Below, piece after piece: positions 3,411 to 22,440 of a stretch of 64,000 nucleotides of DNA. The notes under the pieces were generated by a model that saw only the letters and a list, made by a program, of their open reading frames with translations, ran no database searches and was not told the origin of the DNA. The position numbers and the translations under genes are program-made. The stretch's first letter is position 1. Each line of letters begins with the position of its first letter. This DNA is from Alphaproteobacteria bacterium (lineage in GTDB: Bacteria > Pseudomonadota > Alphaproteobacteria > Rhodobacterales > Rhodobacteraceae), in contig QOQE01000002.1 of assembly GCA_003331935.1 (NCBI GenBank), positions 1 through 64,000 on the forward strand. The letters run 5' to 3'.

Positions 3411-4639
3411 GCTGTCAGCTCCTTTTCCCTATCCAAAATTCGCGTTCTCCAATTTAAAATGTCTGAGTCTCCTTTTGGTTTTCGAGAGAGATATAATGTC
3501 AAGTTCTCGATGCTTTCCAGAGAATGTATCGGAAGTAATGCATCTACATTTTTTAAAATTCTTTTTATTGAGACACTTTTTGGTAAAAACTTTTTGTATC
3601 TAAGTAGAGGGTTAAGCCACAAGAGATATTTGCAGTTTTTTTTAAGTCTTTCCATCTGAATTAGCAGATCACTTTGGTGGTTTTTATCGAGACCGTCACT
3701 AATAAAAAGTACAAGTGAGCCTGAGACGGGAGTTCGTCTTACCCAAGTCTTATTAAATTCGTATATACTGTCTCGTATACGAGTTCCTCCAGCCCAGTCA
3801 TCAGTAACTTTAGAGATTTTCTGCAAAGCATCGTCGATATCTTTGTTTTTCAACAAATGTGTTATGTTTGTTAGCTTTGTCCCAAAAAGAAATACCAAGC
3901 AGTTTCTATGTCTTTGCATTAGATTATGCACAAAATGCAGCAGCATTTTTGAGTAATTCTCCATAGAGCCAGAAATATCGATCAAGAAAACAATTGGACG
4001 ATCTTTTTCTTTCTTTTTCATAAATTTCGGTAACACTATACCAAAATTCTTAACACTATCCTTCAACCCATGACGAACTGACAAGTGTGGTCCCATTTTC
4101 TTTGGTTCAAACCGACGAAATGGTTTTTGAGGCAAATGTACTGACAAATCTCGGATGACATCGGTTGCTTGTCGAAGCTCATTTTTCGACATGGTGCCAA
4201 AGTCTTTAGACTTTTTTAACTGTATATCTGAGGCGGAACCAGATGTATCGAAAATTATATTGTCTTCAAGTTCGTCTAATTTTTTAATTTTCTCTGTCTT
4301 TGGTAAGTTCTCTCTGATTCTCTGAGCAAGCTCTTCTTTTTGCTCATCTTGCTCACTTACCCTAGTTCTAGGCAGTAGCATATTCCTTGTCTTTTCCTGA
4401 AACTTTGGATTTTGCCAAAATAAATCAAAAGCCTGCCTAAAAATTATCTCGTCTTCTTTCTTCTTTGTAAGACACGTCAGTAAAGAAAAATAAAAGGCTC
4501 TTTTAGATTTGAGCCCAAGTGTCTTAATCGCGCTAATGGCATCAGTCACCCCATCCGAGCCAATTTTAATACCAGAAGCTCTTAACAAGTGTGTAAATAG
4601 TAAAACATTCTCCGGCAACTTTCCTTCCATAGTATCCAT
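3407..4639 (-). CDS. coxE: CoxE-like VWA-domain protein
   Basis: A 410-residue protein with a C-terminal von Willebrand factor A domain. The MIDAS metal site is DISGS at residues 221-225, and threonine- and aspartate-containing segments follow (WAGGTRI and FISDGLD). The N-terminal half is charged and low in recognisable motifs, as in CoxE proteins. CoxE works with the AAA+ protein CoxD in assembling the active site of molybdenum hydroxylases, in a way reminiscent of magnesium and cobalt chelatases. The partner MoxR/CoxD gene is immediately upstream, nine bases away. Confidence 0.88.
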   Translation of the reverse strand: MDTMEGKLPENVLLFTHLLRASGIKIGSDGVTDAISAIKTLGLKSKRAFYFSLLTCLTKKKEDEIIFRQAFDLFWQNPKFQEKTRNMLLPRTRVSEQDEQKEELAQRIRENLPKTEKIKKLDELEDNIIFDTSGSASDIQLKKSKDFGTMSKNELRQATDVIRDLSVHLPQKPFRRFEPKKMGPHLSVRHGLKDSVKNFGIVLPKFMKKKEKDRPIVFLIDISGSMENYSKMLLHFVHNLMQRHRNCLVFLFGTKLTNITHLLKNKDIDDALQKISKVTDDWAGGTRIRDSIYEFNKTWVRRTPVSGSLVLFISDGLDKNHQSDLLIQMERLKKNCKYLLWLNPLLRYKKFLPKSVSIKRILKNVDALLPIHSLESIENLTLYLSRKPKGDSDILNWRTRILDREKELTA

Positions 4640-9418: not shown

Positions 9419-9880
9419 ATGGATATTAAAGATAGCTACGAATTACCTCTCCCAAAGGAAAGAATATGGGCTGCGCTTAATGATGAAGAGTTTCTTAAGA
9501 AGTCCATTCCGTGGTGTGAAAAGTTAGAAAGGCGTAGCGAAACTGAATTGGCCGCAGAAGTAAAGCTTAAGATAGGACCAATGTCTACTCGTTTTACAGG
9601 CAGTATTACTTTAAGCGATATCGACCCACCTAATGGATATACCATAACGGGAAGTGGTAAAGGTGGGATTGCTGGTGCCGCAAGTGGATCAGCGAAGGTT
9701 AAGCTGGTAGAAGCTAAAGATACGTCCTCGACTACCTTGTCTTATGAAGTCAGTGCACAGGTAAAAGGAAAGATTGCACAACTTGGATCGCGCCTAATCC
9801 AAAGTACGGCAAAAAAGTTATCACAAAATTTCTTTGGCAGTTTCGTCAAACAGCTAGAAGATATGGATAAACCTCAATAA
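9419..9880 (+). CDS. coxG: CoxG-like SRPBCC-family protein
   Basis: A 153-residue protein of the START/SRPBCC superfamily. It begins with the CoxG-type pattern of a short strand followed by KERIWAALNDEEFLKKSIP and has a glycine- and alanine-rich loop (KGGIAGAASGSAKV). In Afipia/Oligotropha, CoxG is reported to help anchor CO dehydrogenase to the cytoplasmic membrane. The gene follows coxM by 65 bases on the same strand. Function here is inferred from family and position. Confidence 0.88.
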   Translation: MDIKDSYELPLPKERIWAALNDEEFLKKSIPWCEKLERRSETELAAEVKLKIGPMSTRFTGSITLSDIDPPNGYTITGSGKGGIAGAASGSAKVKLVEAKDTSSTTLSYEVSAQVKGKIAQLGSRLIQSTAKKLSQNFFGSFVKQLEDMDKPQ

Positions 9881-9945
9881 ACGGCTTTATCTTTTCCAGA
9901 TTACATTTATATCTAATCACGAGTTGCAAAAAATGGTGTTTCAGT

Positions 9946-11202
9946 GTGATAGAGCAAAGACAGGGACTTATTGAATCCATACGGAAAAAATTTATGCACG
10001 TGGAAACTTGTCCGTTTGAGGGAGAACGGATTTTTTTTGAGAACGCCGGAGGTTCCCTAAGACTAAAATCAGTTGTTGAAACATCAGCTCTTTATGCTTC
10101 GTATCCAGATAACCAGGGAAGAGAAAACGAAGCTTCAAAAGCTTTAGTTAGATCTATTGAAAATGGTAAATCTAAGATGAGACTTTTTTTTAACGCCGAT
10201 CGTGGTGATGTTATCGTAGGTGAGAGTGGTACTGAGTTGCTTTTCAGGCTGATACGAACAGCAGCACTTGAGTTACCAAGAGGAGGAACTATGTTAAGTT
10301 CCACGCTAGAGCACCCTGCTTCCATGAGTGCAATGAAAAAGTGGGCAAAAAATACTCTTAGAAGTCATATAATAGTCGAGCATGATGACGAGCTAGGAAC
10401 AGTAGATGAAAAAGCCTATTTAAAAAAATTAACCCGTGATGTTCGAGTTGTGTCTATTGTTCATACATCCCCTGTAACTGGGATGACTGTCGATTTAGAA
10501 AAGATTACTAAAGAAGTTAGGAATGTAACGCCTGATTGCATAATTATAGTTGATGGCATTCAGCATTCCAGTCATGGCGCAATAGATGTTCAAAAATATA
10601 ATATTGATGGCTATGTGGTCTCTCCATACAAGATGTTTTCACGACACGGTTATGGAGTTGCATGGGCTTCTGACAGACTATGTGCTTTGGGTAAGGAACA
10701 ACTAGTAGGCGGTCCTTTCCAAAACTGGGAGCTAGGTACGCGAGATGCTGGTAGTTATGCGACTTTTTCAGATGTTGTAGACTATCTAGACTGGCTTGGC
10801 AGTAATTTTACAAACAGCGAAAGTGCCAGAGAAAGATTAGAAGCTTCCTCGGTAGCGATAAAAGCACATGAACAGGAGTTAGTAAATTTAGCGTTGCATG
10901 GATCTGAAAACCTAATTGGGTTAATAAAAATTGAGCAAATTGAAATTATTGGTGACTTAGCTTCGACTTCAAGAGAGGGAGTGGTGTCCTTCTATTTTAA
11001 AAATAAACCCTCCACTTTAATAGTTGAAAAGCTTAGACAACGAAAAATACGCGTCCACATTAGAAAAGATGATCATTATTGCGGAAATATACTTAGGCCT
11101 TTAAATCAGAAAGACTGCATTAGGTTTTCAATATGCCACTATAATTCAAAGGCAGAAGTAATTGAGTTTCTGAAAGCGATAAACGAAATTAGTGCTCACT
11201 AA
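9946..11202 (+). CDS. Class V (cysteine-desulfurase-like) aminotransferase family protein
   Basis: A 418-residue PLP enzyme of fold type I. The likely Schiff-base lysine is K229 in VSPYKMFS. The ring-nitrogen aspartate is D203 in IVDGIQHSSHG. The N-terminal FENAGGSLR and HTSPVTGM segments are typical of the class V/SufS-like group. The start is a GTG at 9946; an internal ATG at 9994 is an alternative. The substrate is unknown. A role in sulfuration of the molybdenum site is conceivable given the neighbours, but the sequence lacks a clear mobile cysteine loop of the NifS/SufS type, so a selenocysteine-lyase-like or isopenicillin-epimerase-like activity is equally possible. Its stop overlaps the stop of the convergent hydrolase (CTAA at 11199-11202). 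Confidence 0.8.
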   Translation: MIEQRQGLIESIRKKFMHVETCPFEGERIFFENAGGSLRLKSVVETSALYASYPDNQGRENEASKALVRSIENGKSKMRLFFNADRGDVIVGESGTELLFRLIRTAALELPRGGTMLSSTLEHPASMSAMKKWAKNTLRSHIIVEHDDELGTVDEKAYLKKLTRDVRVVSIVHTSPVTGMTVDLEKITKEVRNVTPDCIIIVDGIQHSSHGAIDVQKYNIDGYVVSPYKMFSRHGYGVAWASDRLCALGKEQLVGGPFQNWELGTRDAGSYATFSDVVDYLDWLGSNFTNSESARERLEASSVAIKAHEQELVNLALHGSENLIGLIKIEQIEIIGDLASTSREGVVSFYFKNKPSTLIVEKLRQRKIRVHIRKDDHYCGNILRPLNQKDCIRFSICHYNSKAEVIEFLKAINEISAH

Positions 11203-13208
11203 AGAACTCTTTTTATCTTGCTCTCCATTTTTTTCTTGAAGATGAGCTTCGCCTTTTCATAAGCCTCTACTCTTGCCTTAAGATAAAAATATGACTTATC
11301 TGATGTCATGCTTGAAAAAGTTTCAGTTCTAATGGACCAATCTCCTCTAGAGCGCTCTTCTGTCCAATGCGTTTCTCCTTTTGCCGATAGTGGATCATTT
11401 GGATGTATTGACCATTTTTCTCTTGCTGTGCTGCTTATAATTAAATTATTCTTAAGATCCTTATAACTACCAAAGTCATCTTCAATATCCAGGAATACCG
11501 CATCGGTAGCTTCATCAAATAGGACTTGCCTTTTATTACACGGTTTCCTAATTTCTTTCCCTTGCCACGGTTTAGAAACCACAGACTTAGGAAAAACCCA
11601 TTCGTCTGATTTAGCGCTTTGTCTTAAAGGCAAAGACAAATAACCCTCTTTTACGACTAGTTTAGCAGGATTACTTACTGGCCAGACTAAGGGCCAGTAA
11701 GCATTTGATAGAGAGAGGCGAAGTTTATTTCCCTTAGGTAATTTATATGCAATATGATCTAACTTTATCTTTACGGTGAATTCTTTCCCTAAAGAGATAT
11801 TTTTTGGACTATCGAAGGACTCACGAAACCTCAGGTTTAAAATACCATATGTTATTCTACTCGACTTACCATCAGGGAATACATCGCATAATCGAACAGC
11901 CAGTTGTCCGTTCGGCGAGTTTGCCTCGAGCGTTATTGTTAACTCAGGAGAGCCAACTATATCTTCTCCAAGGATCAAGTCGTTGGTATCAAAACAAAGT
12001 GAGAAAGCATCATCAAGACGCTGGTCTCCTGGAAGCTCTGGGCCTAACCAAATAGCACAATACTCTCCACCTTTAAGCCCACAATGCTGTGGGCTATCAA
12101 TTACGCCTAACTGGCACTTATTTTTCTTATTACTTAAAGAAAGTACATTGTTAGAACGTAAATAAAGCTTTTTGTTTTTACTTGCTTTACTTGGCCAACG
12201 ATCCTCTTTGATCCAATATCCGTCTCTAAAATTATAACTGCTTTTAGGCGGTTCACCTTTCATTACATACACTCTGTAGTCGGGATCTGTTTCACATCCA
12301 TTATCAATTTCTTTCAGCCATCTGTCCCACCATCGGATTGCTTCCTGTAAAAAACCTATCTGAGGTTTTGGTACAGCAAAGTGAGGGTATTTATGTACCC
12401 ATGGTCCAATTATCCCCTTAGCTTTTGCATTCTTGACCAGTTCTGGAACTGCATTTTTGTATGCATCTCCCCATCCCCCAATAGCTAGGATTGGAGTTTC
12501 AAGTTTAGAATAATCCTCACATACAGATCCATGTTTCCAATACTTATCTCTTCTTTGATGTTTCAACCAAATGTCTGAGAGATGGGGTTGGCTTTTCAGA
12601 CGCTCTAGCCACATCTTTTTCCATTTCTTTCCAACAATTAAGGGATCAGGTGGTCGCGAAGAATATGAAAGCATCGTAGCACCCCAGCCCAAGTTTTCAT
12701 TTAACAAGCAACCGCCCTTATAATGAATGTCATCGGTATATCTATCAACCGTTGAACATAAAGTTATTATTGCTTTTAAAGCCTTTGGTTTTCGAAAAGC
12801 CACCTGTAAGCTATTAAAGCCACCCCAACTAATTCCCATCATGCCAATGTTGCCATTACTCCATGATTGTTTACTTGCCCAATCAATTATATGTTCTGCA
12901 TCACTTAATTCTGTCTCTGTATACTCATCGAAAAGAAGTCCTTCGCTGTCTCCATTGCCTCTTAGATCTACACGCATACATACATAACCTCTTTCACAAA
13001 AGTATGGATGGGTTAAGGCGTCTCTAACGTGAGTTCCATCTCTTTTTCGATAAGGGATATATTCTAAGACTACTGGAAATCTTTCAGATTTTTTACTAAT
13101 GGGCTTCCAAATTTTAGCTGAGAGTTTAATTCCGTCTGGCATTGGTATTGCGAGATGTTCAATCTCCTCAACTTTAAAGAGCTTTTTTTTTATTGATACT
13201 TTTCCCAA
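11199..13208 (-). CDS. CocE/NonD-family serine hydrolase
   Basis: A 669-residue alpha/beta hydrolase of the X-prolyl dipeptidyl-peptidase S15/CocE group. The nucleophile is S127 in MGISWGG. An upstream DLRGNGDSEG segment is typical of the family, and a C-terminal beta-sandwich domain begins around residue 370. There is no signal peptide, so the enzyme is cytoplasmic. Family members hydrolyse esters or amides such as cocaine or acylated beta-lactam precursors. The substrate here is unknown. The gene is directly downstream of an FAD oxidoreductase with no gap, so the two are co-transcribed. Confidence 0.87.
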   Translation of the reverse strand: MGKVSIKKKLFKVEEIEHLAIPMPDGIKLSAKIWKPISKKSERFPVVLEYIPYRKRDGTHVRDALTHPYFCERGYVCMRVDLRGNGDSEGLLFDEYTETELSDAEHIIDWASKQSWSNGNIGMMGISWGGFNSLQVAFRKPKALKAIITLCSTVDRYTDDIHYKGGCLLNENLGWGATMLSYSSRPPDPLIVGKKWKKMWLERLKSQPHLSDIWLKHQRRDKYWKHGSVCEDYSKLETPILAIGGWGDAYKNAVPELVKNAKAKGIIGPWVHKYPHFAVPKPQIGFLQEAIRWWDRWLKEIDNGCETDPDYRVYVMKGEPPKSSYNFRDGYWIKEDRWPSKASKNKKLYLRSNNVLSLSNKKNKCQLGVIDSPQHCGLKGGEYCAIWLGPELPGDQRLDDAFSLCFDTNDLILGEDIVGSPELTITLEANSPNGQLAVRLCDVFPDGKSSRITYGILNLRFRESFDSPKNISLGKEFTVKIKLDHIAYKLPKGNKLRLSLSNAYWPLVWPVSNPAKLVVKEGYLSLPLRQSAKSDEWVFPKSVVSKPWQGKEIRKPCNKRQVLFDEATDAVFLDIEDDFGSYKDLKNNLIISSTAREKWSIHPNDPLSAKGETHWTEERSRGDWSIRTETFSSMTSDKSYFYLKARVEAYEKAKLIFKKKMESKIKRVL

Positions 13209-14594
13209 TTAAAAAACTCTTACATTCTGGGTGCCAAGAGCTTTTTGAACATTTAAAATATTCACACTGTTCAGAGATGTTTTAGTCTTTACTGCCTCGG
13301 CTGCAGCTACTCCTGCTCCTTGACCAGTAACTGTGCAGCAAGCCATATTTCTGGTGGCTGCATGAGCAATATTACTTCCCCCTATAGCTCTTCCAACAAC
13401 TAATAATCCTTTTATATTTTTGGGAAGTAGAGACCGATATGGAATATGCATATACCTACCTGTGGTCGGTAATACTAGAATGCCGAAGCCGTCTATGAAC
13501 TCAGGGTATATCCCAATACTGTCGTCAAACCTGCACTCATTTTCTACAGCTTCATCTGAGAGGTTGTATTCAGAATCAATCTTGTATGTATCGCGTATAC
13601 CGATTGTCATCCCAAAATTTCTTAATTTTCCTGCTGAACACCCAGGCATGTACTCCTTTAATGCAGCTATGGCCTCTAAAGCTGCTTTTCTACCCTCTAT
13701 TTCTCCTTTTGTTAAACTTTCGGGATCAGTTCCATCTATCCCATTAAGATGAACTAGATTTAAATAGGTTAGTTCACCTGAATCATGTATTGCGCCCCAC
13801 GTTCCAGAAATAGTTTGTAAATCACTATCTATCAAACCAGATTCTTTAGCCTTTTCAAATGGTTTGCGAAGGAAAGGTGAGAACATGTCATCTTCCTTAC
13901 CAGATGTTTGTACTTGCCAATTCTTGTTACTCCAGTCCCTATATTTTTGTGGACCACGTTTTATTTCGTCCATAAACTCTTCTTTATTCACACCAGACAT
14001 ATGAAACATAACGGAGGCAGATATCATGTCCTCTTTACTATTTTTGAATACTGTTACACCACTACGCCTAGCTACGTCGGCATCACCAGTTGCATCAACA
14101 ATAATTTTGCCCATAATAGCTTCTCTACCGGCTTTAGATTCGGTAATCACTCCTCTTATTTCATTACCTTCTAAAATGGGAGAGCAAAAGGCGCGATGAA
14201 GCATTGGGCGTACACCTGCTTTCAAAACAAGATTATCCGCTACTACTTTAAATCCCTCACTGTCAAGCTGATAACTTTTTGACTGAGACTCAGGGACTGC
14301 GGCATTATTTTCTATTGCTCTTTGTTCGTATTCAAAAGTTAAGCCGCCAGCTTCTATGGTTTTCTCATGGCGATACCATGCAAAGCCCTCGACTCCAACA
14401 CAAGTTATGTTGCCTCCAAAGCAACCAAATCGCTCAATAAGTATAACACTGACTCCAGCTCTGGCTGCGGCAATTGCCGCGGACAGTCCTCCTGGGCCTG
14501 AGCCAACAACTACTACATCGGCTTCTCCTACAACAGGGGTTAACCTCTCGGGCTCTCTAATTTCCATTTCAGTTCCAACTCCATCATACGGCAT
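13209..14594 (-). CDS. FAD-dependent oxidoreductase (FAD_oxidored family)
   Basis: A 461-residue flavoprotein. The N-terminal dinucleotide motif is VVVGSGPGGLSAA at about residues 29-41, followed by ERFGCFGGN. A second FAD contact is IVDATGDADVARRSG, and the C-terminal NMACCTVTGQGAGVAAA is characteristic of the PF12831 family. No membrane or export signal is seen. The substrate is unknown. It sits immediately before the CocE-type hydrolase and opposite the cox cluster, so the pair may process one small molecule, but nothing in the sequence names it. Confidence 0.85.
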   Translation of the reverse strand: MPYDGVGTEMEIREPERLTPVVGEADVVVVGSGPGGLSAAIAAARAGVSVILIERFGCFGGNITCVGVEGFAWYRHEKTIEAGGLTFEYEQRAIENNAAVPESQSKSYQLDSEGFKVVADNLVLKAGVRPMLHRAFCSPILEGNEIRGVITESKAGREAIMGKIIVDATGDADVARRSGVTVFKNSKEDMISASVMFHMSGVNKEEFMDEIKRGPQKYRDWSNKNWQVQTSGKEDDMFSPFLRKPFEKAKESGLIDSDLQTISGTWGAIHDSGELTYLNLVHLNGIDGTDPESLTKGEIEGRKAALEAIAALKEYMPGCSAGKLRNFGMTIGIRDTYKIDSEYNLSDEAVENECRFDDSIGIYPEFIDGFGILVLPTTGRYMHIPYRSLLPKNIKGLLVVGRAIGGSNIAHAATRNMACCTVTGQGAGVAAAEAVKTKTSLNSVNILNVQKALGTQNVRVF

Positions 14595-14629
14595 TGTCTA
14601 TTAAAAATATTTTTGAGGCAAAGTAATTT

Positions 14630-15412
14630 TTATTTCTTAAAAAAATAATTAAAGACATAACGCAGAATTAGAGGTGTGAGACCTAGAAGGCAGAAAATGA
14701 TTAATATTTTAGGAGACAATATTTCAGATACATGATGGATCTTATTAATTTGAGATCCAAAGTAAACATAGGCTATAGTCATCGGGGCAATACCTATCAA
14801 TGTCACAAGACCATATGGAATAACTCTAATTGGGGTAAAAGCCATAAAGACATTAACAAGATAGAATGGAAATACAGGTATCATTCTGATTGCGAACAGA
14901 TAAAAAACACCATTTTTTATAATCATTTTCTGAAAGGTATCAAAAGATGGTGTGTTTTGATTGTGCAAAAAACTTTTCAGAAAATAGCGAACAAGGATAA
15001 AACAAAATATTGCGCCAACCGTAGCAGATAAAGTTGATAATAAAGCACCCTGAAGAACGCCAAATAGTATTCCTGAAAATATAGACAGAACTGTTGCTAA
15101 CGGAATGGATGCAGAGACTATAATTACATAAAGAATGCAAAAGAAACCTCTGCATATAAATGGATATGATGAGCATGTTACCTCAATTTCGAGTTTCGCA
15201 TCCAAAAAATTTTTTAAAGATAACCCATCAAAAGAATAAAGAACCAAAGAAAAAATTATAGCCAGGGAAATGTAAGATAAAAATCGTTTCAAATTTCTCT
15301 CTTTAACTAAGATATTAGTAACCCAGTGTATTGTAAAATTACTTTTAATAAAAATAATATGTTTTAATAGAGATGTTTCATTATATTCCTGTAAAGAGGT
15401 ATATTCGGTCAT
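14630..15412 (-). CDS. TVP38/TMEM64-family (SNARE-associated/DedA-like) membrane protein
   Basis: A 260-residue polytopic membrane protein. After a short N-terminal arm there is a hydrophobic segment (LSYISLAIIFSLVLYSF), then a long hydrophobic block and the family core FSGILFGVLQGALLS and RMIPVFPFYLVN. The latter is the typical R-x-x-P-x-x-P-F loop of TVP38/DedA proteins. Relatives move lipids or polyprenyl phosphates across the membrane. The ATG at 15412 shares the palindrome CATG with the ATG of the divergent glycosyltransferase. A longer reading with ATG at 15478 would overlap that gene by 68 bases. Neither start has a strong ribosome site, so the N-terminus is uncertain. Confidence 0.82.
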   Translation of the reverse strand: MTEYTSLQEYNETSLLKHIIFIKSNFTIHWVTNILVKERNLKRFLSYISLAIIFSLVLYSFDGLSLKNFLDAKLEIEVTCSSYPFICRGFFCILYVIIVSASIPLATVLSIFSGILFGVLQGALLSTLSATVGAIFCFILVRYFLKSFLHNQNTPSFDTFQKMIIKNGVFYLFAIRMIPVFPFYLVNVFMAFTPIRVIPYGLVTLIGIAPMTIAYVYFGSQINKIHHVSEILSPKILIIFCLLGLTPLILRYVFNYFFKK

Positions 15413-16247
15413 GGAAGGCTTTAATGTTTCGGTAGTGATTCCTACATTCAATAGAGTAGATTTTGTACTCAAGGCCATTAAATCTGTTTCTAACCAGACT
15501 TTTCAACCATTAGAGATTATTTTAGTAGATAATAATTCTGATGATAACACCTTGGAAATGGTGGCGAAGCACTTTAAGACCGTAAAGATTATATTCCAGA
15601 AAAAGCAAGGTGTGAGTGCATCTAGAAATTTTGGAATACGAGAGGCTTCAGGAAATTGGATCGCTTTTTTGGACTCAGACGATCAATGGCACAAACGCAA
15701 GCTCGAAGAACAAGTAAAGAGTATTACGAACGATACGCTATCTGTTGATTTATCCCACACCAATGAAATATGGTACAGAAATAAGGTTTTCTTTAATCAA
15801 AAAGAAATTCATAAAAAACGAGGTGGTTTTATATTTGAACATTGCCTGCCACTTTGTTGCATTTCTCCAAGTAGTGTACTTATAAAAAAAAAGGTCTTTG
15901 ATGATATCGGATTTTTCGATGAATCTTTAGACGTCTGCGAAGATTATGACTTTTGGTTGCGTTTTTGTTGTAAATATCCAGTTAATTTTGTTGATCAAAA
16001 GCTTACAATTAAGAATGGTGGACATAATGACCAATTATCAAAAAAGTACTGGGGAATGGATAGATTCAGAATCCAAGCATTAGAAAATTTGTTGCAATCT
16101 TCAGTTTTAGAGGAGCGGCAGGAACAGTTAACAAAGAGTATGCTACTTAAGAAAATTGACATATTAATAGAAGGAGCAAAGAAGAGGTCCAATACAGCCA
16201 TTTACAATATGTATTTACAAAAACAAAAGCACTGGGAAGCAGAATAG
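15411..16247 (+). CDS. Family 2 glycosyltransferase
   Basis: A 278-residue GT-A-fold glycosyltransferase. It begins with VSVVIPTFNR and EIILVDNNSDDNT, then RNFGIREASGNWIAFLDSDD, with the metal- and nucleotide-sugar-binding DSDD at residues 88-91. No membrane segment is seen, so it is likely cytoplasmic or peripheral. It is the first gene of a tightly linked set: its TAG stop overlaps the GTG start of the next gene by one base. The donor and acceptor sugars are unknown. Coupling to a radical SAM enzyme and a nucleoside-phosphorylase-like protein is unusual for this family. Confidence 0.88.
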   Translation: MEGFNVSVVIPTFNRVDFVLKAIKSVSNQTFQPLEIILVDNNSDDNTLEMVAKHFKTVKIIFQKKQGVSASRNFGIREASGNWIAFLDSDDQWHKRKLEEQVKSITNDTLSVDLSHTNEIWYRNKVFFNQKEIHKKRGGFIFEHCLPLCCISPSSVLIKKKVFDDIGFFDESLDVCEDYDFWLRFCCKYPVNFVDQKLTIKNGGHNDQLSKKYWGMDRFRIQALENLLQSSVLEERQEQLTKSMLLKKIDILIEGAKKRSNTAIYNMYLQKQKHWEAE

Positions 16248-17077
16248 TGACTAATCAAAATTTTGAGGGAATGTCAGTTAGGTGGGTGATCGCATTAAAA
16301 GCTGAGGCAGAGGAGATAATAAAGAACTATGCGTTGGAGAGGGTAGCAACCAAACCTTTCCAAGTTTATAAAAATAGAGATATTGATATATGGCTTGTTC
16401 TCTCAGGGATAGGGCAAATCAATGCGGTCGCTGCTACCACTTACTTATATGTCAAAAGTGATGCATCAGATAATACGATCTGGATGAACCTTGGAATAGT
16501 TGGAAGCCGAAACTTTAAAGTTGGAGAACTAGTTCAAATAGATAAAATAACATCAAATGATTTTCCAGATAACCACTATCCTTCACCAGCAACTTTTAAA
16601 AATAATAATGTTGAACGTAGTAATTTGATAACGGTCAACAAACCTGAAGCGCTGTTCGAAAATGATGGTGTTTATGATATGGAGGGATATGCCTTTTTCA
16701 GCTTTGCAAAAAAAATTGCATCGTATGAGCTTGTCTCTGTTTTGAAAATAATTTCAGACATACCCGGAACAGATATATCAAAAATAGACAAAATTGCAGT
16801 GGAAAGACTAGTTCTTAAAAAAATGCCATTGATAGAAAAGGTCTTAGAAAATTTATTATCATTACAGGAAATTCTCCTTCTACAACAAAGAAACCCAAAC
16901 TATTTTGATGAAATCTGTCAGCAGAGGAAATTTTCCTTTAGTCAAAAGGTAACTCTAAAAAAATATTTAACCCAATGGCAGTCTAGATTTCCAATGAGAA
17001 ATCCATTAAGTGAAATTGAAAAAAAAATGACTACCTCTCAAATCTTAAAGAGATTTTCAGATAATTTGTTAAGATGA
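16247..17077 (+). CDS. Nucleoside-phosphorylase-superfamily protein
   Basis: A 276-residue protein with a PNP/MTA-nucleosidase-like N-terminal domain. Visible elements are VIALKAEAE at the N-terminus, the phosphate/sugar-site glycine loop LSGIGQINA (52-60), NLGIVGSRNFKVGELV (81-96), DMEGYA (144-149) carrying the ribose-binding glutamate, and KIISDIPG, in which D171 matches the catalytic base-contacting aspartate of nucleosidases. Residues about 180-276 form a lysine-rich helical extension absent from standard nucleosidases. The start is GTG at 16247; the ATG at 16271 is possible. The likely chemistry is cleavage of an N-glycosidic bond. The substrate could be 5'-deoxyadenosine released by the adjacent radical SAM enzyme, but this is inference. 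Confidence 0.75.
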   Translation: MTNQNFEGMSVRWVIALKAEAEEIIKNYALERVATKPFQVYKNRDIDIWLVLSGIGQINAVAATTYLYVKSDASDNTIWMNLGIVGSRNFKVGELVQIDKITSNDFPDNHYPSPATFKNNNVERSNLITVNKPEALFENDGVYDMEGYAFFSFAKKIASYELVSVLKIISDIPGTDISKIDKIAVERLVLKKMPLIEKVLENLLSLQEILLLQQRNPNYFDEICQQRKFSFSQKVTLKKYLTQWQSRFPMRNPLSEIEKKMTTSQILKRFSDNLLR

Positions 17078-17080
17078 ACT

Positions 17081-18070
17081 ATGGTTGATACTATTTATGC
17101 AGAAGACGAAATAATAGGTACAAAAAAAGCACAAGAAATTATTTCAAAGTTTAGACATGCAAAAGTTATTAGTATTAAAAGGTTTGGCGAAGTATTTAAT
17201 CCATCTAACCAAAACTTCAGAATTCAGAAAATAAATCCTGCTCTTATTCTTGCAAGAAAACAAAAAGGGTTTGTTCTCAATGCGCCAGAGGGATTTGGGA
17301 TTAGAGATCAAGATAATTATTATTTTTCTCATATGTACAACTGTTTATACGACTGCTCTTATTGTTTTTTGCAAGGCATGTATAATTCAGCAAATTACTT
17401 GGTATTTGTAAATTTTGACGATTATAAGAATGAGATTGAGAAAATTATTGGCAAGGATAAAGAGAAGGAAATGACCTTTTTTACGGGCTATGATTGTGAC
17501 TCTCTAGCTATGGAACCAATAACTAATTTTCTAAGCGATTTTATTCCTTTTTTTCGTCGGTATAAGAATGCTTTATTTGAAATAAGAACGAAAAGTATCA
17601 ATAACACGGTTTTTAGAAAGCATGACGCATTAACCAACTGTATTGTAGCGTATAGTCTTATGCCGGAGACATTAGCACAAACTTTGGATAAAAAAGCGCC
17701 ATCAGTATCTGCCCGAATTAAAAATATAAAATATATAGCAAATAAGGGATGGAGGATAGGATTGAGGTTTGATCCATTGATATATTGTAATAACTGGAAG
17801 GCTCAATACTCTGAGTTATTTGCAAATATTTTTAAAGAAATCAAAGAGGAAAGCATTCATTCAGTGTCTCTTGGCTCATTGAGATTTCCTAAAAGTTTCT
17901 TTAATAAATTACTTCAATATTATCCAAATAGCGAAGAATTTTCATTTTTAAGATCAAACGATAAAGGGATCATTTCTTATGATCAATCTATAGAAAATGA
18001 GATGAATGAATACTGTCGATTAGAGCTTATGAAGTATAGTGACGCTAGAAAGTTCTTTTCTTGTGGCTGA
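17081..18070 (+). CDS. Spore photoproduct lyase-like radical SAM protein
   Basis: A 329-residue radical SAM enzyme. The [4Fe-4S] ligands are C88, C92 and C95 in CLYDCSYC (C-x3-C-x2-C). The following residues (FLQ, then VFVNFDD) match spore photoproduct lyase. C139 in YDCDS falls 51 residues after C88, matching the hydrogen-donor cysteine (C141 with C91 in Bacillus subtilis SplB), and the nearby serine S141 is also kept. The tyrosine after the third cluster cysteine is replaced by F96. Y94 before it is kept. SplB reverses the 5-thyminyl-dihydrothymine lesion in spore DNA. No sporulation genes are seen here, so the substrate may be another lesion or another molecule altogether. The gene follows its neighbour by three bases. 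Confidence 0.85.
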   Translation: MVDTIYAEDEIIGTKKAQEIISKFRHAKVISIKRFGEVFNPSNQNFRIQKINPALILARKQKGFVLNAPEGFGIRDQDNYYFSHMYNCLYDCSYCFLQGMYNSANYLVFVNFDDYKNEIEKIIGKDKEKEMTFFTGYDCDSLAMEPITNFLSDFIPFFRRYKNALFEIRTKSINNTVFRKHDALTNCIVAYSLMPETLAQTLDKKAPSVSARIKNIKYIANKGWRIGLRFDPLIYCNNWKAQYSELFANIFKEIKEESIHSVSLGSLRFPKSFFNKLLQYYPNSEEFSFLRSNDKGIISYDQSIENEMNEYCRLELMKYSDARKFFSCG

Positions 18071-18794
18071 GAATCATTTTGGAGATAGCATTAAAAAAGT
18101 CATTGTTATAGGATCGACCGGCACAATAGGAGAAGCTGTATCAACACTTTTGCTTAACAGTGGTTTTTCTGTGATTGGTATAGGAAGAAAAGTTCCTTCT
18201 TTTGATAAAAAAAAGGAAAACTATATTCATCACATTCTAGATCTCCAAAATACTGACCTTCTAGAGGCGACGCTGTCTAATATTGTAAGGGACCATGAGG
18301 GGATTATTTGTTTGGTGCATTGTGCCGGGTTAGGAGAATTTTCTAATATAGAGAACCTTCCTATATCTAAAATAAAATCCATGTTAGATGTAAATTTACT
18401 TTCTGTTATTGTATCAGCGAAGGTTTTGTTACCTCATTTTAAGAAAATGGATAATGGAAAATTAATACTAATTGGCTCTGAAGCAGGCCTAAAGGGAGGA
18501 CAAAAAGGATCTGTTTATTCAGCTACAAAATTTGGTTTACGTGGATTTGCTCAATCAATTAGAGAAGAAACAGCAAAGAATAATATATTTGTGACAGTAA
18601 TAAATCCAGGGATGGTAAGAGGAAAGTTTTTTGATGATAAAAATTTTCGGCCTGGAAAAAGTGTAGATAATGCAATTGAGCCAAATGATATAGCAAAATT
18701 AGTAAATAACTTGCTAGATGAAGAGATAGGCATGGTTTTTGATGAAATAAATGTATCCCAAATGAAAAAAGTTATAGAGTTTAACAAAAATTAA
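18063..18794 (+). CDS. Short-chain dehydrogenase/reductase
   Basis: A classical SDR of about 243 residues. The cofactor loop is GSTGTIG near residues 17-23. Further motifs are HCAG, a catalytic serine in LIGSEAG and YSATK, with Y152 and K156 as catalytic residues. The NPGMVRGKF segment follows. The start is uncertain: GTG at 18063 gives a short overlap with the upstream stop, and GTG at 18039 is in the same frame. It is the fourth gene of the radical SAM cassette and is probably translated from the same message. The substrate is unknown. Confidence 0.85.
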   Translation: MAENHFGDSIKKVIVIGSTGTIGEAVSTLLLNSGFSVIGIGRKVPSFDKKKENYIHHILDLQNTDLLEATLSNIVRDHEGIICLVHCAGLGEFSNIENLPISKIKSMLDVNLLSVIVSAKVLLPHFKKMDNGKLILIGSEAGLKGGQKGSVYSATKFGLRGFAQSIREETAKNNIFVTVINPGMVRGKFFDDKNFRPGKSVDNAIEPNDIAKLVNNLLDEEIGMVFDEINVSQMKKVIEFNKN

Positions 18795-18805: not shown

Positions 18806-20206
18806 ATGCGAAATGAGTTAATAGAAAAATATGCTTTTGAAGCAGTGGATTTAATTAGAAAAAAAGAAGTAAGCAGTTCCGAGCTTTTAAAAGCCTCACG
18901 AGATAGACATATAGAAGTTGACGAGCAAGTTAATGCATTACCTCACACTTTTTATGACATGGCTCTCACCAAAGCAAAAAATATCAATATTGATAGTGAA
19001 ATACCAAACGAAAAAAGCCTTTTAGGATTACCAATAGCAGTTAAGGATTATAACGATGTAGCAGGAGTTCCTACAACATTTGGCTCAAAAATTTTTTGTA
19101 ACAATATTCCGTCAAAATCAGACGCAACGATTGCCCGCTTAGAACAAAATGGTGCGCTACCTGTAGCTAAATCAAATGTTCCAGAATGGGCAGGGGGACA
19201 TACGTTTAATCCAGTTTATGGAGTTACAAAGAATCCTTTTGATAAAAATAAAATCGCAGGGGGTTCGTCTGGAGGTTCCTCAGTTGCCTTAGCTACAAAA
19301 CAGGTTTGGCTAGCCACGGGTAATGACTTAGGCGGAAGTCTTAGAACTCCTGCTAGTTTCAATAATATTGTTGGTTTGCGACCAAGCATAGGAGTTGTCC
19401 CGAGGGGCCTACGTTATAATAGATTTGATCCACTGTGGGTCGAAGGTCCTCTGGCAAGATGTGTTAAAGACATTGGTCTAATGCTTGATGCCATGGCTGG
19501 CTATTGCAAAACAGATCCATTATCTTTTGATCATACATGCAGTTCTTTTCTTGAAGCCGTTGATACTTTTGATTTGCCGGCAAAGGTAGCTGTTACAGAA
19601 GACTTAGGTCTGGTCCCCGTTGAACAAGAGGTGAGGAGTGTCTTTAGAACTGTAGTCCCCCACCTAAAGACTATTGGGTGTGAAGTAGGGAGTGATATAC
19701 CCGATTTTAACGGTGCGATAGAAAGCTTTCATACATTAAGGGGTTTATTAATGGCCTATATGTTGGGTGATCTTTACAAGAGTAAAAAAGATGAAATTCT
19801 GGTGGACATTGTAAAAAATATAGAGGTTGGTTTTAAAGTTTCGAATGACGAAATAATAACTGCAGAAAAAATCCGGCAGGACCTTTTTATAAAAATTGAT
19901 AGATTTTTTGAAGAGTACGATTTTTTGATCTGTCCAACATGTTCTGTTTTACCGTTCGATATTGAGACTCCCTTTGTAAAAGAAATAGACGGGGTCGCAT
20001 GTAAAACATATATTGATTGGTTCGCAATAACATTTGCACTGACCCTGACTTCGTGTCCAATTATTTCTCTTCCAGTTGGCTTTTCTAGTCATGGGTTACC
20101 TGTAGGAATTCAAATCGTGAGTAAGCCAAGACAGGAAGACAAACTTTTAGCCTTTGCAAAAGTTTTGGAAGAAAAGGTTTCCGTAAATAAAAGTAGTCCT
20201 ATTTAG
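18806..20206 (+). CDS. Amidase signature family protein
   Basis: A 466-residue amidase. The catalytic triad is visible as K80 (LPIAVKDYND), the cis-serine S154 in AGGSSGGS, and the nucleophile S178 in DLGGSLRTPA. The length and motif order match fatty-amide-hydrolase/GatA-like amidases. No signal peptide is seen. It lies 11 bases after the SDR gene and may be part of the same transcript, or only its tail. There is no GatB or GatC nearby, so it is not the tRNA amidotransferase subunit. The substrate is unknown. Confidence 0.87.
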   Translation: MRNELIEKYAFEAVDLIRKKEVSSSELLKASRDRHIEVDEQVNALPHTFYDMALTKAKNINIDSEIPNEKSLLGLPIAVKDYNDVAGVPTTFGSKIFCNNIPSKSDATIARLEQNGALPVAKSNVPEWAGGHTFNPVYGVTKNPFDKNKIAGGSSGGSSVALATKQVWLATGNDLGGSLRTPASFNNIVGLRPSIGVVPRGLRYNRFDPLWVEGPLARCVKDIGLMLDAMAGYCKTDPLSFDHTCSSFLEAVDTFDLPAKVAVTEDLGLVPVEQEVRSVFRTVVPHLKTIGCEVGSDIPDFNGAIESFHTLRGLLMAYMLGDLYKSKKDEILVDIVKNIEVGFKVSNDEIITAEKIRQDLFIKIDRFFEEYDFLICPTCSVLPFDIETPFVKEIDGVACKTYIDWFAITFALTLTSCPIISLPVGFSSHGLPVGIQIVSKPRQEDKLLAFAKVLEEKVSVNKSSPI

Positions 20207-20219
20207 ACACTTGTTAGAT

Positions 20220-21029
20220 TCATATAGGAAAAAAAGCGTTAGCGTTATTTAATCTAAACTTTGAAATAGCTCTTTTTCCATTATCAGATTTCAAGAAGGT
20301 AACAATTTTTTCAACTGCGCTAGTTTTAACGTTTTTACATTTCTTGGGGTTTACAGTTGTTACAGCGTAAGTATTTAAATCGTTATTATCATACCCAACT
20401 ATTTCTGAGTCTCCTTTGTTTTTAAAGGAATACCAAGTTGCTGTGTCAGTTATAGTAAATGCTCCAAGTTCATTTGCAATCATTAGAGTAGCTCCTTGCC
20501 CAGAGCCGGTTTCAAGATACCAGGTTTTCGAGAACTCTTCAGGGACAAGAGCTAGCTCTTTCCAAAGAGACAACTCCTTCATATGAGTCCCGGAATTATC
20601 GCCACGAGAAATGAATTTTTCTTTTTTATCATAAATTTTTTCCATTATTTCTCTTATTTCATGACCCCTAATATCTTTCTCTGTTTTAGCTTTTCTGGGC
20701 CCAACAATTACCCAGTTATTATACATAAACTCGAATCTTTTTAATCCATAGCCAGTTTTTAAAAACTCAATTTCTGCCTTTTTTGCATGAGTAATGAGAA
20801 CGTCTCCATCACAATTTTTCATATTTTTAATTGCCTGTCCTGTACCAACAGCGACAACCCTAATTTCAACACCAGTATAATGTTGTAAAATAGGAGCAAG
20901 GTACCGATAAAATCCAGAATTTTTTAATGAAGTAGAAGATTGAATAATAATATTATCAGCCAAAACATTGGAGCTTGATAAAGTTACAAAAACTGAGAGA
21001 AAAAGGATGCGCGAGAGTATATTTTTCAA
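20220..21029 (-). CDS. tupA: Tungstate-type ABC transporter substrate-binding protein
   Basis: A 269-residue periplasmic binding protein with a signal peptide at residues 1-24 (cleavage after VLA). The oxyanion site segment is SSTS at 31-34. VAVGTGQA at about 60-66 and SRGDNSGTH at 141-149 are characteristic of TupA/WtpA-like tungstate binders, as opposed to ModA. It captures tungstate, and possibly molybdate, in the periplasm and delivers it to TupB. The gene overlaps tupC by four bases. It ends 13 bases from the convergent amidase. Confidence 0.88.
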   Translation of the reverse strand: MKNILSRILFLSVFVTLSSSNVLADNIIIQSSTSLKNSGFYRYLAPILQHYTGVEIRVVAVGTGQAIKNMKNCDGDVLITHAKKAEIEFLKTGYGLKRFEFMYNNWVIVGPRKAKTEKDIRGHEIREIMEKIYDKKEKFISRGDNSGTHMKELSLWKELALVPEEFSKTWYLETGSGQGATLMIANELGAFTITDTATWYSFKNKGDSEIVGYDNNDLNTYAVTTVNPKKCKNVKTSAVEKIVTFLKSDNGKRAISKFRLNNANAFFPI

Positions 21030-21727
21030 TTTATTTTTCCCGATATGTACTTTTTTGCTTCCCTAGTTTTTGGATTTTCAAAGAAATTTTCAGCTGACGA
21101 ATGTTCGATTACTCTACCAGTGTGAATGAAAACAATTTCGTCTGCTAATCTACGAGCTTGATTTATATCATGAGTAACAAAGAATATTTTCCGAGATGAT
21201 CTTACTTTTTGAATAAGGTATTTTTCAATTAACGTAGTTGAATTAGGCTCAATATTGGCGGTCGGTTCATCTAATAATAAAATTTCAGGATCAGTAATTA
21301 TTGCTCGCGCCAGACATAATCTCTGTTTTTCACCAGCTGATAGAGTCAATGCGTTCTGATGCTCTTTTTTATCTAATCCCATGAGACTTAGTAGTTCTTT
21401 TGCCAGGGTACTTTTTTCAGATGTTATTTTTTCCAAAACAAATAACATGTTTTTTAGAACTGTTCTCCGTAGTATGACTGGTTCTTGAGATACGAAAGCG
21501 CGTGTTTTAATTGACAGATTCCCACCCTCAAAAGTTATGGATCCACTACATGGAGTCAAAAGTCCCGTTAATAGCTTTAAAAAAATTGTTTTACCTGCTC
21601 CATTAGCTCCGAGTAAAACTGTTATTCCATCTCTATTTAAAGAAAGATTGGTATTGTGTAAAAGGGTCTTTCCTTCAATATTAAAAGAAAGGTCATTTAT
21701 GGTAATTTGAGTATCTTCAAATGCCAT
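21026..21727 (-). CDS. tupC: Tungstate-type ABC transporter ATP-binding protein
   Basis: A 233-residue ABC ATPase. Walker A is GANGAGKT at 40-47, the signature is LSAGEKQR at 130-137, Walker B is LLLDEP at 151-156, and the switch histidine is in FVTHD. It powers oxyanion import with TupB. It overlaps tupB by one base and tupA by four, so the three genes form a coupled operon transcribed B-C-A. Specificity is inferred from tupA. Confidence 0.88.
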   Translation of the reverse strand: MAFEDTQITINDLSFNIEGKTLLHNTNLSLNRDGITVLLGANGAGKTIFLKLLTGLLTPCSGSITFEGGNLSIKTRAFVSQEPVILRRTVLKNMLFVLEKITSEKSTLAKELLSLMGLDKKEHQNALTLSAGEKQRLCLARAIITDPEILLLDEPTANIEPNSTTLIEKYLIQKVRSSRKIFFVTHDINQARRLADEIVFIHTGRVIEHSSAENFFENPKTREAKKYISGKIN

Positions 21728-22440
21728 TAAATGCTACTCCCAGGAGTTTTGAGATATTTTCCTCGCAAAAACAAAATGAAACCATTTAGTACTATTGCGG
21801 TGGCTAACAAAATAATTCCTAAACCCAAAGCTAAATCAAGATTGCCCTTTGAGGTTTCTAGTGCAATAGCGGTAGTCATGACTCGAGTAATATGATCTAT
21901 GTTTCCTCCTACAATTATGATTGCTCCAACCTCAGAAATAGAGCGGCCAATACCAGCAAGTATTACAGTTGTAAGTTCAAACCTGCTGTCAACAATATAA
22001 GCTATTACTGATTTTAACTTTGCTACTCTGTATGAACGGAAAAACTCATGATAACGGGTATGTAAGCTTTCAATTATTTGAAATGTTAGACAACACACTA
22101 TTGGTAAAATAAGGATTACCTGAGCAATTATCATTACTGTTGGTGAGTAAAGGAGCCCCATCCAACCTAACGACCCTGAACGAGAAAATATTAAATATAC
22201 AAATAAGCCAACAACTACGGGAGGTAAGCCCATCATTCCAAAAAGGATGGAAACAACAGTATTCCTAAATTTAAAATGTGTGCTTGCTAAAAATGCTCCA
22301 AGAGGTATTCCAAGTATGCTTGAAATTAGTACAGCATAGAATGTTATCCTGAACGATAGAAGTATTATCTCCAGTAATTCAGCATCTAGAAATAAAATTA
22401 GACCGAGAGAACTAACGAAAGCTTCTGATATATCGTTCAC
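21727..22440 (-). CDS. tupB: Tungstate-type ABC transporter permease
   Basis: A 237-residue inner-membrane permease with about five or six hydrophobic segments. The ATPase-coupling loop near residues 165-185 (GIGRSISEVGAIIIVGGN) is typical of TupB/ModB-like permeases. Residues near MGLPPVVVGLFVYL match the conserved TupB region. It heads the tup operon and begins three bases after the stop of no co-directional gene on its own side: the preceding acyl-CoA dehydrogenase gene ends there. Read-through from that operon is therefore possible. Confidence 0.87.
   Translation of the reverse strand: MNDISEAFVSSLGLILFLDAELLEIILLSFRITFYAVLISSILGIPLGAFLASTHFKFRNTVVSILFGMMGLPPVVVGLFVYLIFSRSGSLGWMGLLYSPTVMIIAQVILILPIVCCLTFQIIESLHTRYHEFFRSYRVAKLKSVIAYIVDSRFELTTVILAGIGRSISEVGAIIIVGGNIDHITRVMTTAIALETSKGNLDLALGLGIILLATAIVLNGFILFLRGKYLKTPGSSI

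Follow-up and report, generated by a model that had tools for sequence, protein, structure and literature searches.

Radical SAM enzymes and enzymes that cleave nucleosides act in sequence in more than one described pathway. In the MqnE-MqnB pair, the radical SAM enzyme forms an adenosyl adduct and a nucleosidase follows; the substrate of futalosine hydrolase derives from a radical SAM adenosyl adduct. The fold of spore photoproduct lyase (SPL) normally carries out hydrogen abstraction, and in SPL a Cys-Tyr relay regenerates SAM. The hydrogen-donor Cys of SPL is C141 in the Bs enzyme and C140 in the Gt enzyme, according to excerpts of PMC3742179. In hopanoid synthesis, the excerpted text of PMC12583986 places after HpnH-HpnG a conversion by a not-yet-established enzyme and then a glycosyltransferase step. 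We describe here a nucleosidase (NP) and an SPL-like radical SAM enzyme whose coupling points away from UV repair and towards a SAM-based pathway that has not been described. The literature searched yielded no description of this pair.

The window, that is the whole stretch of 64,000 nucleotides analysed, carries a packed array of four genes on one strand (Table 1). An earlier note had called these GT2, nucleoside-phosphorylase-like, SPL-like and SDR; families and coordinates were confirmed, and its claim of tight spacing holds. GT2 and NP overlap by 1 base, NP and SPL-like are separated by 3 bases, and SPL-like and SDR share 32 bases if the SDR begins at its called GTG. An alternative in-frame GTG at 18063, possibly the true start, would bring the last overlap down to just 8 bases. 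The scans for promoters (26, with shuffles averaging 20.5, sd 4.3) and for terminators (1 against 2.4, sd 1.6) gave nothing clearly higher, and we therefore infer co-transcription of the cassette genes solely from their spacing. The amidase, which the earlier note leaves out, starts 11 bases downstream of the SDR end, and amidase matches ≤5 kb from SPL-like occur in loci of the window's genus only (L050-L072); the same restriction to genus loci applies to the VTT matches. The VTT ORF as called runs 68 bases into the start of GT2, and since most genus relatives carry a shorter ORF, its start has probably been over-called.

Table 1. The cassette and its immediate neighbours in the window
Feature	Place in the unit	Position	Strand	Basis
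VTT-domain membrane protein, divergent	outside unit	14630..15478	-	PF09335 75.6 bits
GT2-type glycosyltransferase	accessory member	15411..16247	+	PF00535 118.7 bits
MTAN/futalosine-hydrolase-like nucleosidase (NP)	core member	16247..17077	+	PF01048 20.0 bits, conserved residues, predicted fold
SPL-like radical SAM enzyme, distinct clade	core member	17081..18070	+	PF20903 62.8 bits
Classical SDR	usual member	18039..18794	+	PF00106 121.2 bits
Amidase, genus-only neighbour	outside conserved unit	18806..20206	+	PF01425 312 bits

The SPL-like protein exceeds the PF20903 cut-off of 27 bits, and reaches 86.5 bits against the spore-photoproduct-lyase equivalog TIGR04070 (cut-off 400) and 83.5 bits against the TIGR03886 equivalog (cut-off 437.55). 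Three SplB-type rows that have the donor Cys, from bacteria such as Roseomonas, also lie below the TIGR04070 cut-off (251-282 bits). The protein is predicted to have the SPL fold: its model matches SPL entry 4fhc with a Foldseek E of 6e-17 and a TM of 0.76, six SPL entries lie at E 6e-17 to 5e-16 (TM about 0.75), and the next match, a PFL-activating enzyme, comes at E 6e-6 with TM 0.47. In the tree, built after removal of rows L004 and L143, the SPL-like proteins form their own clade (support 97/94), and the six TIGR03886-type rows form a separate one (100/99). The labels SplB-type and TIGR03886-type were given at the tree stage and the profile scores came later, with L004 excluded; against TIGR03886, five reference rows score 569-628 bits and L028 scores 331 bits.

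The CX3CX2C [4Fe-4S] motif (C88, C92, C95) is present in 85/85 SPL-like rows. The position of the SPL hydrogen-donor Cys is occupied in all 85 by a tyrosine (Tyr137), likewise found in the Fusobacterium row and two faecal rows; four SplB-type rows have Cys there, and among the TIGR03886-type rows five have Glu and L028 has Cys. At the position of the relay Tyr (Y99 Bs) the 85 rows carry Phe96, and Tyr is found in the Fusobacterium row, the two faecal rows and the SplB-type and TIGR03886-type rows. In the C. acetobutylicum SPL enzyme, an alternative Cys can act as the donor. This residue is C74 in the excerpts of PMC5368176; in our alignment, where the exact C74-equivalent column was not located, no Cys before C88 is invariant, and column 32 alone has Cys in over 30% of rows (40%). 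Since the Cys-Tyr relay is not whole, the SPL-like enzyme probably consumes SAM at each turnover.

NP stays below the PF01048 cut-off of 25.1 bits. Its AlphaFold2 model (pLDDT 91.9) finds its best Foldseek matches among MTA/SAH nucleosidases and futalosine hydrolase at E about 1e-12 (for 3bsf, E 1.7e-12, probability 1.00, TM 0.58), and the predicted fold is of this type. Residues E20, E146 and D171, each present in 58/59 rows, are equivalent to Glu12, Glu174 and Asp197 of MTAN in a register that includes a weak second stretch (6 bits). All three are catalytic in MTAN. MTAN E12 and D197 are named in the titles of PDB entries matched by NP. The best score against the curated MTA/SAH nucleosidase/futalosine hydrolase equivalogs is 30.0 bits (cut-off 161). 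Futalosine hydrolase is the curated family that most NP members match, weakly (19/21), the window's NP reaching 21.4 bits against a cut-off of 124.7. The alignment shows NP to be extended by about 80 residues at its C-terminus, the NP of L045 being shorter (195 aa). NP is expected to remove the purine base of a nucleoside. On one faecal scaffold (L200), what is left of NP beside SPL-like is 160 aa long and lacks the catalytic part, so that NP catalysis is either dispensable somewhere or provided by another enzyme. The idea that NP is HpnG was rejected: TIGR03468 (HpnG) is absent among the families reported for the window's NP at E up to 0.1, and Methylobacter marinus has a separate HpnG. A housekeeping MTA/SAH nucleosidase lying here by chance was also discarded, because NP tracks SPL-like among genomes and Fusobacterium has a canonical MTAN as well.

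The motif D88-S-D90-D91 of GT2 is well kept (D88, S89, D90 and D91 each in 56/57 rows, one row being gapped), and among the weak matches of this protein is the arsenosugar glycosyltransferase family TIGR04283 (64.2 bits, cut-off 182). A GT2 orthologue scoring >370 bits was found in 6/12 genomes tested. The catalytic residues of the SDR (S147, Y160, K164, N119) and R50 are present in 77/77 rows, and R50 suggests NADP(H) as the cofactor.

The best 80 of at least 558 relatives' loci were compared, a sample in which distant types are under-represented and the window's own genus accounts for 10 loci (L063-L072); Planctomycetota and Halothiobacillaceae membership each comes from one MAG. Conserved co-occurrence of the four families, for which the earlier note had proposed a survey, is indeed found. 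All four genes were called on the same strand within 5 kb in 49 of these best 80 loci; L126, whose NP falls in the NP cluster and was missed by phmmer, makes a 50th, and the order GT2, NP, SPL-like, SDR is kept in all 50. The flanking genes of four-gene loci vary between lineages, and the arrangement is beyond chance. SDR follows SPL-like in 76 of the best 80. A larger gene cluster was considered and rejected: flanks such as YggT-like and ProC-like genes (identified by eye), a DAO/GCV_T protein, arginase, CoA transferase and others are lineage-specific, none recurring among distant lineages in the compared loci. L046, where NP and SPL-like lie 3 kb apart, has a carbamoyltransferase gene within its cluster, and a phosphoribosyltransferase-family gene lies upstream in L125, the same ORF cluster occurring in L111, L113 and L132; such neighbours would fit a pathway that releases a base and yields a hydroxylated product.

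The link between NP and SPL-like persists where the two genes are apart. Among 201 Methylococcales genomes, 123 have both, one (G1194) has SPL-like only, none has NP only and 77 have neither (Fisher p about 1e-55, with related genomes treated as independent). Just 8 of the 123 have the two genes ≤1 kb apart, and in 79 they are on separate contigs. Thus SPL-like genes standing alone, which the earlier note held would break the case for a single system, do occur in methanotrophs as far as position goes, yet 123/124 of these genomes also carry NP. In a draw of 289 Alphaproteobacteria, NP was found in 6 genomes and an orthologous SPL-like in 5, all of which have both; in the sixth carrier, a contig end truncates NP. 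Of 22 genomes of the window's genus, 16 have NP and 15 SPL-like, again all with both, and in the one with NP but without SPL-like the locus lies at a contig end. Contig-end cuts account for the exceptions G398 and G575. The order draw gave 3/390, with a high score solely for the window's own genome and 22-24% identity for the other two; the phylum draw gave 1/378 and carries little information, the 20 negatives listed all belonging to the window's own family. In a record from Fusobacterium, a distant bacterium, the two proteins become a single fusion of 623 aa, with the NP part N-terminal, followed by SDR. Carriers also include human faecal scaffolds, and a Bathymodiolus gill symbiont carries SPL-like, SDR and NP.

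We propose from these data that NP and SPL-like are an obligate pair. Persistence when unlinked and fusion in Fusobacterium bear out the earlier suggestion of a functional unit centred on an SPL-like enzyme and a nucleoside-cleaving protein. The idea that its four genes are equally core did not survive, since 5 of 11 tested NP-bearing genomes have no orthologue-level GT2 match and two loci (L047, L048) have NP-SPL without GT2 or SDR nearby: the core is NP + SPL-like, SDR is a usual member and GT2 an accessory one that precedes the pair in several lineages. A mobile or viral origin was set aside. Viral contigs gave one distant match (25% identity) and, searched with a gut SPL query, no match; of 11 plasmid records 10 were listed, one from Fusobacterium and the other nine showing 22-25% identity, four of which were placed in the tree, in other clades; and two faecal 'phage' scaffolds are bacterial in appearance.

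Genetic coupling, fusion, predicted folds, kept nucleosidase residues and a lost SPL donor Cys were all computed here. The reading that we favour, with a probability of roughly 0.4, is a route like those of HpnH-HpnG and MqnE-MqnB, in which NP and SPL-like act on the adenosyl group derived from SAM. SPL-like would cleave SAM and add, or otherwise join, the 5'-deoxyadenosyl radical to an unsaturated acceptor; NP would then hydrolyse the N-glycosidic bond, with adenine leaving and a ribosyl product remaining; the SDR would reduce this product with NADPH, and GT2, where present, would glycosylate it. What we infer is the adduct and its acceptor, which way the SDR works and what GT2 modifies. Besides the genetic coupling and the fusion, this reading draws on the weak futalosine hydrolase matches of NP, on its kept catalytic residues and on the incomplete relay of SPL-like. 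A more specific form of this reading is possible and only tentatively put forward: an SPL-fold enzyme would adenosylate a common metabolite or lipid, a reaction new for its fold, and a dedicated and in places fused nucleosidase and an NADPH reductase would convert the adduct to an undescribed ribose- or polyol-tailed product, common to ocean bacteria, human-associated anaerobes and methane oxidisers. We know of no SPL-fold enzyme that adds the adenosyl radical. Outside near genus kin, identity to the window's protein is 25-45% for NP and 43-60% for SPL-like, and such fast NP evolution speaks against a pocket closely fitted to an adduct. L047 and L048, without SDR and GT2 nearby, and the NP remnant in L200 were also counted against the adduct.

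The same rapid evolution, with mainly catalytic residues kept, would suit a generic role, and this brings in a second reading, nearly as good and quite conceivably the right one. In it, NP would be a bound or fused enzyme clearing the 5'-deoxyadenosine made by a hydrogen-abstracting SPL-like enzyme, and SDR and GT2 would act on the real product. One inhibitory 5'-deoxyadenosine would arise per turnover and be removed on site by an NP whose fold is that of MTA/SAH nucleosidases. Fusion and overlapping genes suit a local clearing partner, and the degenerate NP in L200 suits replacement by the cell's own nucleosidase. Excerpts of PMC8102628 report that radical SAM enzymes are inhibited by 5'-deoxyadenosine, whose disposal is needed, which favours clearance. 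Against it, we know of no case in which a single radical SAM enzyme has its own nucleosidase purely for this purpose. The excerpts of PMC8102628 also report that a Synechococcus MTA phosphorylase cleaves 5'-deoxyadenosine; a second enzyme therefore seems superfluous where an MTAN or MTAP-type enzyme is present. Such is the case in Fusobacterium, whose record has a canonical MTAN and DeoD besides the fusion, and in Methylobacter marinus, which has an MTAP-type enzyme and HpnG in addition to NP; NP is an extra enzyme in both, which speaks for the adduct. This argument fails in the window's genome (~90% complete), where a PF01048 search at E 0.01 found no gene, a result that fits clearance and slightly lowers our confidence in the adduct; the PF01048 model does not detect the cassette NP either.

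A third possibility, which we consider unlikely, is that NP acts first on a modified nucleoside, and that the base or sugar so released goes on to SPL-like and SDR, either in salvage or on the way to a small signalling or cofactor-like molecule. NP is encoded ahead of SPL-like, is N-terminal in the fusion, and the unit seems self-contained with its varying flanks, but reaction order is not given by gene order, and among distant lineages in the compared loci the unit has no additional gene as a repeated companion. UV-lesion repair, which the earlier note had offered for a lesion other than the spore photoproduct, is unlikely, and even when oxidative nucleic-acid lesions are included we hold repair to be very improbable, in spite of the predicted SPL fold and of many carriers from the SAR116 cluster and other bacteria that live in sunlit seawater. 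Excerpts describe a UV-induced SPL-family protein, not necessarily of this clade, in Curtobacterium (PMC12029717) and SPL-like genes of other bacteria found with SOS repair genes (PMC3765255), but repair was set aside as the main reading because Tyr137 replaces the donor Cys in 85/85 rows, the SplB-type and TIGR03886-type rows lie outside the clade, several habitats are at odds with it (Fusobacterium, human faecal scaffolds, the mussel gill symbiont), and it is not obvious what nucleosidase, SDR and GT2 would do in direct reversal.

Because Pfam groups members of the SPL-like clade under 'spore photoproduct lyase', they are easily taken for UV-repair enzymes. The evidence places them in a small, widespread enzyme set with its own nucleosidase. 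The adduct reading, if true, would add one more pathway of radical-SAM adenosylation, using a new fold and with a product in marine bacteria and methane oxidisers; clearance, if true, would provide a radical SAM enzyme paired with, or fused to, an enzyme that removes 5'-deoxyadenosine, a useful tool. Under either, the question is testable using three or four small genes.

Among known systems, arsenosugar synthesis employs an ArsS-type radical SAM enzyme, a nucleoside phosphorylase and a glycosyltransferase, a similar order of reaction types; no ArsM/ArsS family match was among those listed for the cassette proteins, and no arsenic gene among the annotated neighbours in the window and relatives' loci examined. 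SplB (TIGR04070, PF20903) has in common with SPL-like the predicted fold, the CX3CX2C motif, the cluster-adjacent Tyr (Y94) and a conserved Lys (K171); it differs in its clade, its donor Cys (Tyr137 in SPL-like) and its relay Tyr (Phe96 in the 85 aligned rows), and SPL-like, unlike SplB, is found with a nucleosidase. MqnB (futalosine hydrolase) is resembled by NP in the weak family matches and in structure (4bmy); MqnE is a low-ranking match in the SPL-like fold search, SPL being far closer. Early futalosine menaquinone synthesis shares its step order with the proposed pathway, and so does the making of the hopanoid side chain (HpnH, HpnG, reduction, glycosyltransferase). HpnH-HpnG likewise pairs a radical SAM enzyme with a PNP-superfamily enzyme, and the comparison drawn in the earlier note fits the logic of a radical SAM enzyme and a nucleosidase genetically tied. 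The HpnG of Methylobacter marinus is a separate protein (187.6 bits to TIGR03468), and the radical SAM partner in the cassette, in contrast to HpnH, has the predicted fold of SPL.

The four ORFs that the earlier note had read at this locus as a GT2 glycosyltransferase, a nucleoside-phosphorylase-like protein (NP), a radical SAM enzyme resembling spore photoproduct lyase (SPL) and an SDR were all borne out, and their families were confirmed by profile matches. The genome comprises 1.56 Mb in 28 contigs and is about 90% complete. Its nearest relatives with named records are uncultured Alphaproteobacteria, represented by single-cell or metagenome assemblies of an isolate series of marine origin. 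The SPL-like protein is the single PF20903 match found in the genome. Downstream of the SDR gene, an amidase gene lies on the same strand; its linkage to the cassette is found in the window's genus only.

Coordinates of the cassette genes and of features at other loci
Feature	Sequence	Position	Strand	Remark
GT2	window	15411-16247	+	
NP	window	16247-17077	+	
SPL-like	window	17081-18070	+	
SDR	window	18039-18794	+	start ambiguous: called GTG 18039 or alternative GTG 18063
Three-gene ABC transporter (PBP-like binding protein, ATPase, permease)	window	20220-22440	-	beyond the amidase; perhaps of the tungstate type
Locus with inserted genes	L046 (genome G672)	9513-14949		carbamoyltransferase and TPR-repeat-like protein (by eye) between NP and SPL-like
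GT2 orthologue of a methanotroph	G709:C1	391596-392414		one in-frame TAG
Two distinct SPL-family genes, arranged head to tail	L252 (Roseomonas plasmid)	2299-4420		directly after repB

A scan of the SPL-like alignment against one genome per species yielded at least 558 relatives. The analysis retained the top 80, ten of them loci of the window's genus. Among these best 80 of at least 558, the GT2, NP, SPL-like and SDR genes stand in that order, on the same strand and within 5 kb, at 49 loci, or 50 with L126, whose NP falls in the NP cluster; SPL-like and SDR occur alone at 25, and an SDR lies downstream of SPL-like at 76. All but one (L128) of the 25 two-gene loci are named as methanotrophs or their families. 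At L111, L113, L125 and L132, GT2, a small ORF, NP and SPL-like are found without an SDR downstream, and an ORF of the SDR cluster lies upstream on the opposite strand; at L125 the upstream ORF proves to be an SDR, and the small one resembles a phosphatase (DSP-PTPase type). The small ORF of these four loci sits between GT2 and NP, and upstream there is a phosphoribosyltransferase that looks adenine phosphoribosyltransferase-like by eye. Locus L096 is interrupted by a contig end. Junctions between cassette genes are short or overlapping at most loci, and the genes flanking the cassette vary by lineage. The carbamoyltransferase at L046 hints at free hydroxyl groups on the product.

NP and SPL-like are co-inherited even where they are unlinked. 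Among 201 genomes of Methylococcales, the order of Methylobacter marinus, 124 carry SPL-like and 123 carry NP: both occur in 123 genomes, SPL-like only in 1, NP only in 0 and neither in 77 (Fisher p = 1e-55, a value that overstates independence, the genomes being related). The two genes share a contig in 44 of the 123 genomes and lie on different contigs in 79; they are at most 1 kb apart in 8. Among 289 Alphaproteobacteria, NP was found in 6 and an orthologous SPL-like gene in 5, all 5 shared, and the sixth NP is terminal on a contig of 3269 bases. Three genomes of this sample (G658, G670 and G702) have SPL matches of 24-31% identity, and no NP was found in them. Within the window's genus (22 genomes), NP occurs in 16 and SPL-like in 15, all 15 shared; in the one member with NP but not SPL-like, NP is again at a contig end. 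Of 12 genomes tested individually, 11 carry NP in single copy and the twelfth, a 1.0-Mb record, lacks it. A GT2 orthologue scoring above 370 bits is present in six of the 12, the best score in the other six being at most 154 bits. The one with an in-frame TAG (G709) is perhaps a decaying accessory gene. No description of the NP and SPL-like pair was found in the literature searched, judged largely by title, a search that left subscription papers and preprint servers outside.

NP was modelled with high confidence (pLDDT 91.9), and its structural matches are MTA/SAH nucleosidases and futalosine hydrolase. Residues E20, E146 and D171, aligned with the catalytic residues of MTAN, are present in 58 of 59 NP sequences. 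PF01048 detects 8 of 21 NP members (E 0.001), and the futalosine hydrolase family detects 19 of 21, always weakly.

The AlphaFold2 model of the SPL-like protein (pLDDT 82.4) matches spore photoproduct lyase over its length (TM score about 0.75); similarity to other radical SAM enzymes is far weaker. In a tree that carries composition and long-branch warnings, the 15 cassette sequences, among them those from Fusobacterium and the faecal scaffolds, group together (support 97/94), separate from the SplB-type and TIGR03886-type sequences. In the B. subtilis SPL, C141 is described as the likely hydrogen donor and Y99 as relaying the radical, which allows SAM to be regenerated; one SAM is consumed per turnover in a C141 or Y99 mutant (PMC3742179). 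The donor position is Tyr137 in 85 of 85 cassette-clade sequences and in all three outlying ones (Fusobacterium L199, faecal scaffolds L200 and L201), whereas it is Cys in 4 of 4 SplB-type sequences and, among six TIGR03886-type sequences, Glu in five and Cys in one (L028). The relay position is Phe96 in 85 of 85 cassette-clade sequences and Tyr in the three outlying ones. Cys139, near Tyr137, is present in 82 of 85 sequences, but the outlying ones have Thr or Ala in its place, so that it is not a clade-wide donor. In the C. acetobutylicum SPL the donor is reported to be C74 (PMC5368176), so that the missing C141 equivalent is by itself compatible with SP repair; no invariant Cys N-terminal of the cluster motif was found in the 85 aligned cassette-clade sequences. 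SplB-like repair genes of other bacteria are treated in PMC3765255 and PMC2628731, and a UV-tolerant Curtobacterium in PMC12029717.

Several other SPL-family genes were met. L027/L049 (genome G658), 31% identical and truncated where its contig ends, is placed next to the cassette clade but has Glu at position 137, and is a possible further SPL subfamily. L028 (genome G670) groups with TIGR03886 at 331 bits, under that family's cut-off. Of the L252 pair, one gene is above the TIGR03886 cut-off and the other is nearest TIGR04070, the SplB equivalog family, with the Cys motif.

In the Fusobacterium vincentii record L199 (NZ_CP084075.1), NP and SPL-like are fused in one 623-residue ORF, followed by an SDR. 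This 2.1-Mb "plasmid" is chromosome-sized, and its label is probably wrong. On the human faecal scaffold L201 (MT835770.1), three ORFs that overlap one another encode NP, SPL-like and SDR; L200 (MT835514.1) has an SDR, a 160-residue NP remnant and SPL-like. Similarity of the remnant to the L201 NP is confined to two short stretches (E 6e-6 and 1e-5), and the segments with the catalytic Glu and with DME are missing from it, so that NP catalysis is either dispensable in some lineages or supplied elsewhere. Both scaffolds are labelled 'Bacteriophage sp.'; their neighbouring genes look by eye like bacterial metabolic or transport genes (a SulP-like transporter, a cation transporter), so the DNA is probably bacterial rather than phage.

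Two main roles for NP can be weighed. It would remove adenine from an adenosyl adduct made by the radical SAM enzyme, or it would locally destroy the by-product 5'-deoxyadenosine. We place the adduct slightly ahead. NP occurs where enzymes of the kinds that remove 5'-deoxyadenosine already exist: in the Fusobacterium record there is DeoD as well as a canonical MTAN (271 bits against a cut-off of 169), and in Methylobacter marinus there are an MTAP-type enzyme and HpnG. Moreover, NP tracks SPL-like, although other radical SAM enzymes are, to our knowledge, near universal, and an SDR is usually downstream, with an invariant Arg at what would be a frequent place of NADP(H) recognition. Clearance of 5'-deoxyadenosine comes just behind; the fast evolution of NP and its reduction to a remnant in L200 speak for it and against the adduct. 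So does the window's genome, about 90% complete, where no other PF01048 gene was found: at E 0.01 there was no match, the cassette NP itself also going undetected, while the genus relatives G391 and G396 have matches. The cassette NP may thus be the sole enzyme of its kind there, which leans towards clearance, or another may be hidden in the missing tenth. The adenosyl-adduct reading resembles, in its series of steps, the hopanoid route, in which HpnH transfers the adenosyl group, HpnG removes adenine, an enzyme still to be established produces the tetrol, and a glycosylation follows (PMC12583986).
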